64,000 nt of DNA from Arcobacter suis CECT 7833 (lineage in GTDB: Bacteria > Campylobacterota > Campylobacteria > Campylobacterales > Arcobacteraceae): positions 372,001 to 436,000 of the forward strand of contig NZ_CP032100.1 of assembly GCF_003544815.1 (NCBI RefSeq). The letters run 5' to 3'. Below the pieces are notes generated by a model. That model saw only the letters and a list, made by a program, of their open reading frames with translations, had not been told where the DNA came from and ran no database searches. Positions 4,505 to 9,210 of the stretch are shown here, one piece after another (the first letter of the stretch is position 1; every line of letters begins with the position of its first letter). The position numbers and the translations under genes are program-made.

Positions 4505-5431
4505 ATGAAAATAGTTATTTTAGATAGAGCAACTTTAGGATTTGATATTGATATGAGTATTTTTGAGACTTTAGGAGAAGTTGAATCTTTTGATGTAACA
4601 AATGAAACTCAAACTATAAATAGAGTAAAAAATGCAGATATAGTAATCACAAATAAAGTAGTGATTTCAAAAGAAGTTATGGATAATTCAAATCTGAAAC
4701 TTATTTGTATAAGTGCAACTGGAACAAATAATGTGGATTTAGAATATGCAAAACAAAAAAATATTCAAGTAAAAAATGTAGCTGGATATTCAAGTTCAAG
4801 TGTAGTTCAATTAGCATTTTCAATGATTTTTCAGATTGTTCAAAAACTTGATTATTATAAAAAATATGTGGATGAAGGAAATTGGCAAAAATCGCAAATT
4901 TTTACACATATAGATAAACCATTTTTTGAGCTTGATAGTAAAAAAGTTGGAATTATTGGACTTGGTGATATTGGAAGAAATTTTGCAAAAAAAGCAAAAG
5001 CTTTTGATTGTGAGGTGATGTATTATTCAACAAGTGGAAAAAATCCTAATAGTGAATATAAACAAGTTAGTTTAGATGAGTTATTAAAAACTTGCGATAT
5101 TATCTCTATACATTGTCCATTAAATGAAAATACAAAAGATTTGTTAAATTATGAAAATATGAAAAATATGAAAAATGGTGCAATTTTATTAAACCTTGGT
5201 CGAGGTGGAATTATAAATGAAGCAGATTTAGCAAAAATTATAGATGAAAAAGAAATTTATTGTGGAATTGATGTTGTTGCTGTTGAGCCAATTTTAGAAG
5301 ATAATCCACTTTTAAAAGTGAAAAATAAACAAAGACTTTTATTAACTCCACATATTGGTTGGGCAAGTATCGAAGCTAGAACTAGACTTGTGAAAATGGT
5401 GGCTGAAAATATAAAAGAGTTTTTAAAATAG
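4505..5431 (+). CDS. NAD-dependent D-2-hydroxyacid dehydrogenase
   Basis: 308 residues of the D-isomer-specific 2-hydroxyacid dehydrogenase family (formate dehydrogenase/SerA/HprA fold). The nucleotide-binding motif VGIIGLGDIGR is at about 148-158, the catalytic Arg lies in NLGRGGIINEADL, and the His in TPHIGWAS near the C terminus. It lacks the ACT domain of full SerA, so glycerate/hydroxypyruvate reductase-like or broad 2-oxoacid reduction is more likely. It follows the HTH gene in a probable two-gene unit. Substrate cannot be set from sequence. Its stop codon lies inside the hairpin at 5425-5452. Confidence 0.85.
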   Translation: MKIVILDRATLGFDIDMSIFETLGEVESFDVTNETQTINRVKNADIVITNKVVISKEVMDNSNLKLICISATGTNNVDLEYAKQKNIQVKNVAGYSSSSVVQLAFSMIFQIVQKLDYYKKYVDEGNWQKSQIFTHIDKPFFELDSKKVGIIGLGDIGRNFAKKAKAFDCEVMYYSTSGKNPNSEYKQVSLDELLKTCDIISIHCPLNENTKDLLNYENMKNMKNGAILLNLGRGGIINEADLAKIIDEKEIYCGIDVVAVEPILEDNPLLKVKNKQRLLLTPHIGWASIEARTRLVKMVAENIKEFLK

Positions 5432-5452
5432 CAAAATTATTTTTGCTATTTT
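5425..5452. terminator. Bidirectional intrinsic terminator
   Basis: Perfect 12-bp inverted repeat (aaaatagcaaaa / ttttgctatttt) with a 4-nt loop. It contains the stop codon of the plus-strand dehydrogenase and reaches the stop of the convergent minus-strand gene ending at 5451. A/T tracts inside the stem serve both directions. Confidence 0.7.
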
Positions 5453-6110
5453 AGTGTTTAAAAACTCTTCTTTTTTTTATCTTTTTTAATTTTATATATT
5501 TTTTCATTAAGTAAGTTATATCAATAATGTTATTTCTAAATTCTGTAAGTCTAGTTTTATGAAAATCTTGTTGAATAGAAGTGAATGCTGAAAAATATTC
5601 TTTTTTTATAATTTCATCTATCCCATAATAATAATTTAATTTCAATTTGTAAATATATAAAAAACTTAATACTTCTTTTTTATTATTTAAATCTATATTC
5701 CATATTAAGAACATATTATTTTTTAGTTCTATAAAATATAAATTCTTTTTATTTTTTCTTAAATTATCAAAGGGAATCATTAAATCTTCAATTTTAAATA
5801 TAACATAATTCGATTTATTTGAAGAGTGAATATTAATTTTTAAATGATCAATTTGAGAATCATCAATTAATAATCTTTCAATCCCTATAAATAAATCAAT
5901 TAATGGTTTTTTTATATATCTAGGATTTTTATTATTTTCAAGTAATATTTGATATTTATCTTCTATAAACCAATCAATTTTAAAATAAATTGGTCCAGTG
6001 AGAAGATATTTTGTATTTTTTAATAGTTTTTTGATTTTTTTATCAAGATAATTTATCTTATCACTATTAGTACTTTCAATTATTTTATCTATGTTAATTT
6101 TGAATTTCAT
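5451..6110 (-). CDS. Degenerate RusA-like protein, last gene of channel/nuclease operon
   Basis: 219 residues, very rich in Lys, Asn and Ile. Residues 39-47 (GPIYFKIDW) and 68-93 (starting KKPLIDLF, then LLIDDSQIDHLKI) resemble the core of the RusA Holliday-junction resolvase family. Aligning K68-P69 with the family's KP places N62 and R64 where the catalytic Asp-x-Asp should be, so both Asp are lost; the Lys (K68) and the acidic pair D83-D84 remain. It looks like a paralogue of the preceding gene, which has the opposite pattern. ATGA overlap with that gene implies translational coupling. It may be a catalytically dead partner. The family call is from pattern recognition and could be wrong. 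Confidence 0.5.
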   Translation of the reverse strand: MKFKINIDKIIESTNSDKINYLDKKIKKLLKNTKYLLTGPIYFKIDWFIEDKYQILLENNKNPRYIKKPLIDLFIGIERLLIDDSQIDHLKINIHSSNKSNYVIFKIEDLMIPFDNLRKNKKNLYFIELKNNMFLIWNIDLNNKKEVLSFLYIYKLKLNYYYGIDEIIKKEYFSAFTSIQQDFHKTRLTEFRNNIIDITYLMKKYIKLKKIKKRRVFKH

Positions 6111-6814
6111 TTAATTAAATTCTTTTCAATTAACTCTGTATATCTTATTGTTTGATTCTTAAAATCTTTTATTTTACTTAAATGAAATGTTTTATTAGAC
6201 ATAAAATTTTTTGTGTAGTAGTTATAAGGGTTCTTTTGTTTAAAAAGAATTAAATCTTTTATATCTTTTTGGTTCAGAACATTTGAAAAAGAAGTTACTA
6301 ATCCTTTTTCAAATTCTAAAAAAATATTTTCATTATCTTTTTTTAATACATTTTGAATATCAAAATAAATGTAAAATACTATAGGATGAACAATATTATA
6401 TTCGGTAGATTCATTTTTAGAAATCCAATAGATATTAATTTTTTTAATTTGACATTCATCAATAATTAATCCATCTTTTCCTTGTAAAGGTTCAATTATT
6501 GGGTTAATTAAATTGTCTAAATCAGCAATTTTGTCTGTATATGTTTTTTCATACTCGGATATATAAAAAACTATTTGAAGATTTACTTCTCCTATTATAA
6601 TCCAATCAAATTTTTTAAGTTCATTTTTGATTTTCTGTTTGAATAATTCTTTTTTTGATTTTTTTGATTGTACACTTATTAATTGGTCATATTCCAATTC
6701 AAAAGAAATTTCACAATTTTTATGAATAGGATTTTCTCCAAAAGGTGATGAATATTCTAATGAATGGTCAAGCTCATTATAATAGTAAGATAGATTTGAG
6801 CTAAATTGTTTCAT
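6107..6814 (-). CDS. RusA-like nuclease family protein (probable)
   Basis: 235 residues. The central part matches the layout of RusA-type endonucleases: GEVNLQIVFYI at 75-85, then DLDNLINPI starting at D98 and LIIDECQIKKI at 116-126. D98, D100 and D119 line up with the essential acidic residues of E. coli RusA (D70, D72, D91). The Lys that follows in RusA (K76) is replaced by N104. The N-terminal 50 and C-terminal 90 residues are extra to the 120-residue RusA core and unrecognised. It lies 24 nt after a 44-residue gene and overlaps the next gene by 4 nt. If active it would cut branched or structured DNA; role here unknown. Confidence 0.58.
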   Translation of the reverse strand: MKQFSSNLSYYYNELDHSLEYSSPFGENPIHKNCEISFELEYDQLISVQSKKSKKELFKQKIKNELKKFDWIIIGEVNLQIVFYISEYEKTYTDKIADLDNLINPIIEPLQGKDGLIIDECQIKKINIYWISKNESTEYNIVHPIVFYIYFDIQNVLKKDNENIFLEFEKGLVTSFSNVLNQKDIKDLILFKQKNPYNYYTKNFMSNKTFHLSKIKDFKNQTIRYTELIEKNLIK

Positions 6815-6838
6815 AATTTAGAAATATATATTTCAAAT

Positions 6839-6973
6839 TTATTTCCCAAAAAAGAATTTCTTAATTTTTCTAAAGAAAGAAAATCTACTTTTCTTCTTTA
6901 GTTTTTCACTTACATCAGCTCTTAAAGCTTCAAGTTTTTTAGGTGTATAAAGAGTTTCTTTTAATATTTCCAT
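6839..6973 (-). CDS. 44-residue basic peptide coupled to the OmpA-like gene
   Basis: Short reading frame starting MEILKETLYTPKKL and ending in an aromatic/basic stretch (FSFFRKIKKFFFGK), which could form an amphipathic membrane-binding helix. Its ATG overlaps the TAA of the upstream gene by one base (TAATG) and is preceded by GGAGAAAAAG, so translation is well supported. It has no homologue I recognise. It sits between the channel pair and the RusA-like genes and may link or anchor them; that role is inference. Confidence 0.68.
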   Translation of the reverse strand: MEILKETLYTPKKLEALRADVSEKLKKKSRFSFFRKIKKFFFGK

Positions 6974-7980
6974 TACTCTTTTTCTCCTAAATAATTTTGA
7001 AGTTCTTTTACTGCTTCTTCATTTTTGATAATAAATTTAATTTCAATTCTTCTTGAATTATCTTTATCTTCAACTCCATCTTTATAAATTAAATCAGAAG
7101 ATGATTTTCCACTTGAACTTACATATTTATTTAATAAATCTTTGTTTATATTGTTTGATTCATATAAAAACTGCATAACTTCCAAAGCTCTTTGTTGTGA
7201 AAGTTGTAAATTACTCAAATACGAACCGTCACTATTTGTATGCCCTTCAATAGTGATTCCATGGATATATTTTCTAATTTCTTTATCTTCAAGTAGAGTT
7301 GTAATATAGTTTTTTAGTATTCCATTTAACTCTTTTTTTGATTCTTCTTTTAGTTTATATGCACCTTGGTCAAATAAAATATTTGAAGAGAATTTTATAG
7401 CTCCACTTTTTTCATCTATATTTATAGATTTTCCTAATTTTTCTTTTAATTTTGTAATAACATTTAGTTTTATTCCAGTTAAAGTTTTGATTTTTGCTTT
7501 TGTGATATCAAACTCTTCAACGGTTTTTTGGTGAGCTTTTTCTTGTTCTAAAAGTTTATTTAATAAAACTGTAAGTTCACTATCTTTTAAAGTTATCTGG
7601 TTTTGTCTATTTTCAAGTTCAGTTGTTTGTTCTTTATCTTTTAATTCATAACCCAATAAAACATCTTTTAGTTTTTGAAGTTCTTCATTATTTAGATTAA
7701 TAGTTTCATTTGATTTTGATAATTGAGTTGATAATTCTGATTTTTCAGCTTCAAGATTTTTTATTAAAGTATTTAATTTATTTAAAACTTCATTTTTATT
7801 TATTAACTCTTCTTGACTTTGATTTAAAGCTTGTTTTTCTTTTTCTAAGTTATTTTGCGAATAAACATATTTTATTACAATAGCTCCAAGAACTAAAATA
7901 AATACAAAAAGTAAACCTGCCATCAAATCTGCATAAGAAATCCAGAAGTTTTCTTCGTTTTTTTGTTCGTTATTGTACAT
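6973..7980 (-). CDS. MotB/ZorB-like membrane protein with OmpA peptidoglycan-binding domain
   Basis: 335 residues. One N-terminal transmembrane helix (about 12-36) begins WISYADLMAGL, with Asp18 in the place of the proton-carrying Asp of MotB, ExbD and ZorB. Residues about 42-165 form a long coiled coil. The C-terminal OmpA/MotB domain (about 190-335) has EGHTNSDG at 245-252, LSQQRA at 260-265 and NSRRIEI at 308-314, the peptidoglycan-binding residues. It would be the wall-anchored stator half of an ion-driven channel with the MotA-like protein encoded 6 nt upstream. ZorB of Zorya has the same plan, but without so long a periplasmic coiled coil. It is coupled to the 44-residue gene by TAATG. 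Confidence 0.85.
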   Translation of the reverse strand: MYNNEQKNEENFWISYADLMAGLLFVFILVLGAIVIKYVYSQNNLEKEKQALNQSQEELINKNEVLNKLNTLIKNLEAEKSELSTQLSKSNETINLNNEELQKLKDVLLGYELKDKEQTTELENRQNQITLKDSELTVLLNKLLEQEKAHQKTVEEFDITKAKIKTLTGIKLNVITKLKEKLGKSINIDEKSGAIKFSSNILFDQGAYKLKEESKKELNGILKNYITTLLEDKEIRKYIHGITIEGHTNSDGSYLSNLQLSQQRALEVMQFLYESNNINKDLLNKYVSSSGKSSSDLIYKDGVEDKDNSRRIEIKFIIKNEEAVKELQNYLGEKE

Positions 7981-7986
7981 TTTTAT

Positions 7987-9210
7987 CTACTTTGATAGTT
8001 CTTTAAATTCTGTTAAATCTTCTATTATTTTTACTGTTTGTTGGTCTATTGATTCTAGGGAAGTTTGTAGTTTATCTGCAAATTTAGTATCATATTCATC
8101 TAAACCTTGTTTAAATTTCCACTCGATTTTTTCCATATCACTTTTCATTGTTTCAATACTTTTTACAATATTTGAATAAATTGCTTTTAGATTATCTGAA
8201 CTTAAATTGTCTAAATGACCATTTAATTTCCCAATGCTATTATTTAAAAGTTGAGCACTAAGAGTATAAGAATCTTTTGATTGTTCAAAACTTTTGATTG
8301 TTGTACTCATATTTAAAGTCATATCTTTTAACATTGTTGATAATTTTTCATTATTATCAATATTTTCACTAATTTTTGTTGATAAAATTAACTCTTTTTT
8401 TAGAATTTCATCAAGAATTTCAACTCTTTTTTCTATTAAAAGATTGATATTATCCATCATATTACTTGAAGTTAATTTTTCAAATACTTCTGACATTTTA
8501 GAGAAATTATCAAGATTACTTTTTATATGAATTGATTCAATATCAATTTTTGTCCAAAAAAATGATTTAGTTGATTCTTTGATTAAAAAAGCATCATGTT
8601 CAAATCTACTCATTCCGATTTTTTCAAAAAAAGTCCACCAAATTGATAAAAATATTCCATAAATTGAAACATAAAATGCAGTTCCAACTCCACCTAAAAG
8701 TGATGAAATTTCTTGTTCAAGTGCAGTTGTAGTTCCAGTTGAAAAATCCGGCATACTAAGTGCAATTGATATGAAAGTTCCTAAAATACCAAGTGTTGGG
8801 AAAATTCCTGAAGCTATTGAAGAAAAGTTTGTATTTCTTAGATTACTTGTATAGTCTTTTAAAAAATCATCAAAACTTCCATTTGCTTTTGTTGAATTGT
8901 CGATTGTTAATAAATTATTATCAACATACTCTTTTAAAGAAAAAAACATCGCTGTATATTGAGTTTTAAATTTGCATGAAACATAATAGGCATTGTGTTT
9001 TACAAAAAATAAATAAATAAAATAAATAAATCCTATTAAAATTACACTGTGAATTTCTACAGTTAAAGGTAATTTTCCTAAATAACATAAAATTATTACT
9101 ACAAATAAGGCACTAGGAATTGTAAGTAAAATAAATATTCTAGATATAGGTTTGCAAGTTGTTTGATATTTTATTGAACTTAAGTCAATTAAATTGTCGT
9201 TTGATAACAT
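7987..9210 (-). CDS. MotA/TolQ/ExbB (ZorA-like) proton-channel protein
   Basis: 407 residues. Four transmembrane helices at about 25-45, 53-71, 132-153 and 170-194. The last two form the MotA/ExbB core, with FPTLGILGTFISIAL and LLGGVGTAFYVSIYGIFLS. Residues 200-407 are a long, helical, probably cytoplasmic tail. ZorA of the Zorya defence systems has this arrangement of channel plus tail, though its tail is longer. Flagellar MotA and TolQ/ExbB lack the long C-terminal tail, and no mot, tol or exbD genes are adjacent. First gene of the five-gene operon ending at 5451. The ZorA relation is inferred. Confidence 0.82.
   Translation of the reverse strand: MLSNDNLIDLSSIKYQTTCKPISRIFILLTIPSALFVVIILCYLGKLPLTVEIHSVILIGFIYFIYLFFVKHNAYYVSCKFKTQYTAMFFSLKEYVDNNLLTIDNSTKANGSFDDFLKDYTSNLRNTNFSSIASGIFPTLGILGTFISIALSMPDFSTGTTTALEQEISSLLGGVGTAFYVSIYGIFLSIWWTFFEKIGMSRFEHDAFLIKESTKSFFWTKIDIESIHIKSNLDNFSKMSEVFEKLTSSNMMDNINLLIEKRVEILDEILKKELILSTKISENIDNNEKLSTMLKDMTLNMSTTIKSFEQSKDSYTLSAQLLNNSIGKLNGHLDNLSSDNLKAIYSNIVKSIETMKSDMEKIEWKFKQGLDEYDTKFADKLQTSLESIDQQTVKIIEDLTEFKELSK

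Follow-up and report, generated by a model that had tools for sequence, protein, structure and literature searches.

Two overlapping genes in the 64,000-nucleotide stretch of DNA analysed here (the window) encode homologues of RusA, each with a predicted RusA fold in its N-terminal domain, and the two proteins have lost different members of a set of conserved catalytic residues. The reading that we favour, though with rather less than even confidence, is that these diverged tandem RusA copies pair up into an asymmetric nuclease, a heterodimer with a single composite active site. The genome that holds the window is a single contig of 2.64 Mb, and sequence comparison places the pair as an insert in a locus that is core to the genus. 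The features discussed below are:

5414..5470, strand not assigned: strong hairpin past and overlapping the 3' end of the protein 2 gene (fold of 5405-5470, minus strand: -19.1 kcal/mol, z -6.45)
5423..6837, strand not assigned: accessory insert, about 1.42 kb long, separating two core genes that stand tail to tail, as judged against the empty sites of L030, L031, L032, and L035
5451..6110, minus strand: RusA-like protein 2, 219 aa (RusA core at about residues 1-112, plus a C-terminal domain)
6107..6110, minus strand: 4-nt stop/start overlap ATGA of the protein 1 and protein 2 genes, read from the sequence
6107..6814, minus strand: RusA-like protein 1, 235 aa (RusA core at about residues 33-155, plus a C-terminal domain)
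6839..6973, minus strand: 44-aa basic ORF, overlapping the ZorB-like gene at its end
6973-7980, minus strand: ZorB/MotB-like gene, a genus-conserved neighbour
7987-9210, minus strand: ZorA/MotA-like gene, a genus-conserved neighbour

The preliminary description of this DNA had reported the 4-nt overlap, and its coordinates and frames are confirmed for both genes; as read from the letters, the overlap suggests coupled expression of the two. The hairpin is probably a terminator, and a consensus scan of 5380-7050 returned no terminator-like sites. Among single-base shuffles of the same DNA (2000 per gene), the longest open frame never exceeded 110 codons for protein 1 or 96 for protein 2, compared with the 235 and 219 observed. 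The G+C content of the insert genes is 20.9 and 16.5 per cent, against 27.7 per cent for the window.

Predicted fold, catalytic positions and pattern of loss

That the two proteins are RusA-like paralogues, as the preliminary description had it, is borne out by the fold matches of both and by L002, a relative from another species of the same genus. E. coli RusA is the best PDB match to the AlphaFold model of protein 1 (VIA-align Z 11.5; 106 residues, 2.5 Å) and to that of protein 2 (Z 9.1; 101 residues, 2.4 Å), and the next unrelated PDB entries reach Z 6.2 and 5.0, respectively. Mean pLDDT is 74.9 for protein 1 and 76.6 for protein 2, with 168/235 and 166/219 residues at 70 or above; both models were built on alignments containing both proteins and their relatives. 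L002 (218 aa) passes the Pfam RusA model at 34.1 bits against a cut-off of 22.8, as do three plasmid relatives. It aligns with protein 1 at 41 per cent identity over 86 residues and with protein 2 at 25 per cent over 161 residues, the C-terminal part included.

Neither protein alone has a Pfam match up to E 1, and PF05866 has no match anywhere in the whole genome. PADLOC and NCBIfam likewise gave no match to either RusA-like protein by itself, nor did phmmer for protein 1 against PDB sequences; PHROGs gave a faint RusA match of protein 1 (E 0.0047). Because the family profile matches 1q8r only weakly by sequence alone (E 0.67 and 0.45), the case for RusA rests mainly on the fold match and the relatives' Pfam hits. 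With RusA the top PDB match of both models and L002 passing Pfam, we therefore take the assignment to be right.

The register of the catalytic positions was taken from an alignment of the family profile to the E. coli RusA chain (1q8r; RDLDNLQKAAFDAL..GFWLDDAQ). The positions correspond, and the motif region is gapless. All the residues that the preliminary description had named are present (D98, D100, N104, and D119 in protein 1; N62, R64, K68, D83, and D84 in protein 2), but its assignment of D119 to E. coli D91 was off by one: D119 and D83 align with D90, and E120 and D84 with D91. E. coli D70, D72, K76, D80, D90, and D91 correspond to positions 98, 100, 104, 108, 119, and 120 of protein 1, which there reads D, D, N, E, D, E (N104, E108, and E120), and to positions 62, 64, 68, 72, 83, and 84 of protein 2, which reads N, R, K, D, D, D (with N62 and R64 altered). 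The canonical Asp trio D70/D72/D91 is incomplete in both proteins (D, D, E in protein 1; N, R, D in protein 2), and the canonical Lys at K76 is absent from protein 1 (N104) and present in protein 2 (K68). Protein 1 keeps two essential Asp, not three, since E. coli D91 aligns with E120; given E120, E108 (at D80), and K214 in protein 1, the split is therefore cleaner than first described. A catalytic role of RusA K76 is stated in the title of Bolt 2000. The Asn of protein 2 at D70 amounts to the substitution D70N, which is named in the titles of RusA structures, one of them with DNA.

These six positions are invariant in 23/23 unpaired relatives, as are N101, G112, Q122, and W130 (protein 1 numbering), although 16 of the 23 rows were obtained through search patterns containing D[LI]DN or ID[DE]-x-Q. 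Conservation of those Asp in the eighteen genome_contigs loci is thus partly built in; the other seven rows were obtained independently of such patterns, by protein searches (L002, L026, L027, L029) or with a profile (L085, L086, L087). Left out of the residue counts were L028 (same accession as L027), L065 (at a contig end), and both fragments of L067. L089 stands outside the 23 rows, and its catalytic residues are intact by eye. Protein 1 has all four of N101, G112, Q122, and W130, whereas protein 2 retains the Gly and the Gln (Q86) and has Y65 and I94 in place of N101 and W130; R79 is also among its altered residues. A C-terminal Arg present in 22/23 relatives is retained in protein 2 (R187) and replaced by Lys in protein 1 (K214).

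The preliminary description had called the losses complementary. They do fall on different invariant positions, but the statistics behind the pattern are weak (p 0.07-0.22). The two proteins share no loss among the 10 invariant columns (p 0.17) or among the 12 columns that are at least 95 per cent conserved (p 0.07); the 11 columns invariant among an earlier set of 20 relatives give p 0.11. At 85 per cent conservation or more (16 columns; p 0.22), E92 is lost in both. As a departure from chance, the apparent complementarity is suggestive only.

Each protein as a homodimer would be expected, from its residues, to be a poor enzyme, because D70N and D72R are both present in protein 2 and the catalytic Lys is missing from protein 1. 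Rafferty's 2003 crystal-structure paper on RusA is said to have argued that dimer formation is necessary for Mg2+ binding. In the heterodimer that we favour, the pair would be tandem, overlapping copies, much diverged, of a RusA-superfamily nuclease that carries an additional C-terminal domain. The metal-binding half (D-x-D-N) would come from protein 1, and the Lys, the acids at D80 and D91, and the C-terminal Arg from protein 2. A mixed dimer would then have one interface site with every conserved residue and another that is dead. Such an enzyme would nick branched or phage DNA or cut it once; it would be active only as the mixed pair and do no harm until both subunits are present. We infer the heterodimer, the composite site, the substrate, and the role in defence. 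The wider claim that this is the first obligately heterodimeric RusA-family nuclease, its site halves divided between subunits as a built-in nickase or two-key nuclease against mobile DNA, is possible but doubtful. The interpretation in the preliminary description is partly supported; it is plausible and rests on one genome.

It is somewhat unlikely that the pair is instead an enzyme with a pseudoenzyme partner, protein 1 keeping some catalysis and protein 2 serving as a dead subunit for DNA binding, targeting, or restraint. Protein 2 has lost the first two Asp outright (to N and R), while three substitutions of protein 1 (Glu for Asp at 108 and 120, Lys for Arg at 214) are conservative. Both terminal branches are very long in the family tree (1.84 and 3.61; median 0.4), a length that would also result from relaxed constraint, and protein 2 has the longest. 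K76 is lost from protein 1, however, and protein 2 retains the Lys, D80, D90, D91, and the C-terminal Arg, which are not obviously needed for pure binding.

Unpaired relatives and the search for a second pair

The relatives occupy twenty-three loci: L002, four plasmid records (two sharing one protein), and eighteen genome_contigs loci. They come from Bacteroidota, Pseudomonadota, Spirochaetota, Planctomycetota, Cyanobacteriota, Actinomycetota, and Verrucomicrobia, and are sparse in larger samples (3/395, 2/369, and 2/398 genomes, including the query genome each time). All twenty-three loci have one gene (split in L067), and every one of the 23 rows counted has its catalytic residues intact; these single-gene relatives are presumably homodimers. 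In L067, a Comamonas contig, the RusA-like gene (4893-5662) lies in two overlapping frames, from a frameshift or an assembly error. A search with protein 2 alone gave one weak plasmid match (E 0.05), to the same gene as found by protein 1.

Several of these relatives sit beside known defence genes. The gajA and gajB genes directly precede the RusA-like gene in L061 (2141-5711), and L063 (2141-5711) has Gabija neighbours by similarity to L061. In L027 (4932-9731), gajAB follow the RusA-like gene, and ptuB is also present. L065 (2-5276) carries brxHI, pglZ, and brxA, followed within a few bases by a RusA-like gene cut by the contig end. Gabija or BREX genes adjoin the relative in at least four of twenty-two loci. 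At E 1e-15, PADLOC matches among eighty further neighbours included PtuA, SduA, mad3, and PDC-S31 (among the 25 of 57 families listed). Five of ten further neighbours, from L051, L053, L059, L060, and L067, had no PADLOC match, nor did the second gene of L067 or one L066 protein. Pfam identified many ordinary metabolic genes among the neighbours too, and an enrichment of defence genes around the relatives is our impression. The P. aeruginosa and Paraburkholderia plasmid copies adjoin integrase genes, and L002 and L089 adjoin what read by eye as toxin-antitoxin genes. RusA-like genes with the FHRTR C-terminal domain beside gajAB are possibly an accessory nuclease of defence islands. The single-gene family as a whole (RusA core plus FHRTR domain, beside Gabija, Septu, or BREX in some loci) looks like an unnamed defence-associated nuclease and is worth testing as one. 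A phage origin was considered and rejected: tblastn of both proteins against 50,697 phage records found no match, and no relative was confirmed in viral_contigs.

The preliminary description had made its reading depend on conservation of the pair, and no second pair was found in any sample searched. A first genome_contigs scan with protein 1 alone gave no match. There was no second copy near the relatives in the twenty-three loci, twenty-two of which were rescanned at a low threshold (best E 0.09). Sixteen whole genomes that hold a relative gave one match in each of fifteen; the sixteenth is that of L067, whose two matches cover different parts (4-102 and 101-232) and are therefore one split gene. 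Nor was there a second pair in 104 family genomes (searched with protein 1), 397 phylum genomes (with a three-row profile), 398 order genomes, or two sets of 395 and 369 genomes, each drawn around a distant relative. These group sets are overlapping samples that include the query genomes, and the genome holding L002 (G001) was not among the matches of the phylum and order samples. A 22.6-bit fragment was found in G274 (L004), where the ORFs of at least 80 aa are unlike the family.

With the relatives single and their catalytic residues intact, the pair is therefore, on present evidence, a local innovation in one genome rather than a conserved two-subunit family. Among the literature matches listed, which were mostly titles and abstract openings with thin coverage of subscription journals, there was no description of such a pair or family.

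The intact relatives also bear on whether both copies are catalytically dead and repurposed with the fold kept, as a junction-binding pair or an inhibitor of other RusA enzymes. In its favour, each protein is missing residues that all 23 unpaired relatives share, and both branches are long. We consider it unlikely, as the catalytic residues that remain are complementary, though random loss fairly often gives that too.

Divergence, constraint and the insertion site

Proteins 1 and 2 are 23 per cent identical, and sisterhood of the two copies is neither favoured nor rejected by the tree (p-AU 0.38), in which both sit on long branches; the pair would have arisen by duplication within this lineage. 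In a neutral-decay simulation (substitutions only, 19 per cent G+C), about three stops had accumulated per gene by 90 per cent identity and an average of five to six by 80 per cent, at which point frames were still free of stops in 1/300 and 0/300 runs. Because neutral decay would have left stops, both genes were probably under selection for most of their divergence, and a recent loss of constraint is possible. A duplicate decaying toward pseudogenes would account for the catalytic losses, the long branches, the very low G+C (16.5 and 20.9 per cent), and the occurrence in one genome only. We regard this as quite improbable given the intact frames, set against the stops expected in simulation, and a predicted fold largely at pLDDT 70 or above.

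The two tail-to-tail genes that flank the insert are joined directly in close relatives. The trinucleotide TTT flanks the insert on both sides (5420-5422 and 6838-6840) and occurs a single time in the empty sites (L030, L031, L032, and L035); no longer flanking repeat was seen at the edges in that comparison. The insert supplies a new, shorter end to the dehydrogenase gene, whose product is 308 aa against 313 in the same four loci; the dehydrogenase of more distant species is also 308 aa. The gene order prpC-prpB-HTH gene-D2HDH / 44-aa ORF-zorB-like-zorA-like is largely kept in twenty other genus neighbourhoods, though it varies in places and some loci are cut by contig edges. In all 19 of these loci where the site is visible, the RusA pair is missing. 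In the twentieth, L034, the contig ends at the site, and a whole-genome search of its genome (G004) with protein 1 gave no match. In a sister species (L033, 9302-11149), the same intergenic spot holds a 145-aa gene and a GGDEF-like 468-aa gene, as read from the sequence. Given this different cargo, the spot may be a small insertion site.

The 44-aa ORF next to the pair lies outside the insert and was recognised in fifteen of the twenty genus loci. Beyond it, the ZorB-like gene is present in 30/31 genus genomes. Defence-system scanners may miscall the ZorA/ZorB-like core pair as Zorya. Zorya systems consist of zorAB plus a type-specific effector module (zorCD, zorE, or other) and occur as an accessory island. 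It is scarcely credible that the RusA-like genes serve the upstream ZorA/ZorB-like genes as effectors in a Zorya-like system: the pair does lie downstream on the same strand, and the ZorB-like gene has a PADLOC ZorB1 match (E 1.7e-57), but none of six window proteins scanned matched ZorC, ZorD, or ZorE, and the ZorA- and ZorB-like genes are core and score far under their NCBIfam cut-offs (77.7 vs 400 and 38.2 vs 500). With the ZorB-like gene in nearly every genus genome and the pair missing from the nineteen other visible loci, we rejected this effector role.

Comparison with known systems

E. coli RusA, a Holliday junction resolvase (PDB 1q8r, 2h8c, 2h8e; PF05866), resembles the pair in the predicted fold of the N-terminal domain and in the D-x-D-N...K...D...DD-x-Q register. 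It consists of two identical subunits (PMC3485210); in the alignment with 1q8r, each has D70, D72, K76, and D91. Here, by contrast, there are two different proteins, each without some of those residues and both with an extra C-terminal domain. SPP1 G44P also has a RusA-like region within a larger protein and is a dimer in solution (PMC3485210), but it is a single gene with the RusA-like region C-terminal, whereas here the region is N-terminal.

The pair is also homologous to the single-gene FHRTR family (L002, L026, L027, L029, L050-L067, L085-L087, and L089), and in full-length rows the homology runs through the C-terminal domain. That family has one gene per locus, with intact catalytic residues in the 23 counted rows and, by eye, in L089, in contrast to the two genes with losses found here. 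If the heterodimer is real, the pair would be a natural dissection of the RusA active site, separating residues that act in cis from those that act across the dimer.

The Type IIT restriction endonuclease BbvCI is not known to share the fold of RusA. Like the proposed heterodimer, it has two different subunits, and disabling one site gives a strand-specific nicking enzyme (PMC6326814). Each BbvCI subunit carries its own catalytic site (PMC6326814), whereas the proposed RusA pair would have one composite site; a real heterodimer would mark a route from a symmetric resolvase to an asymmetric two-component nuclease.
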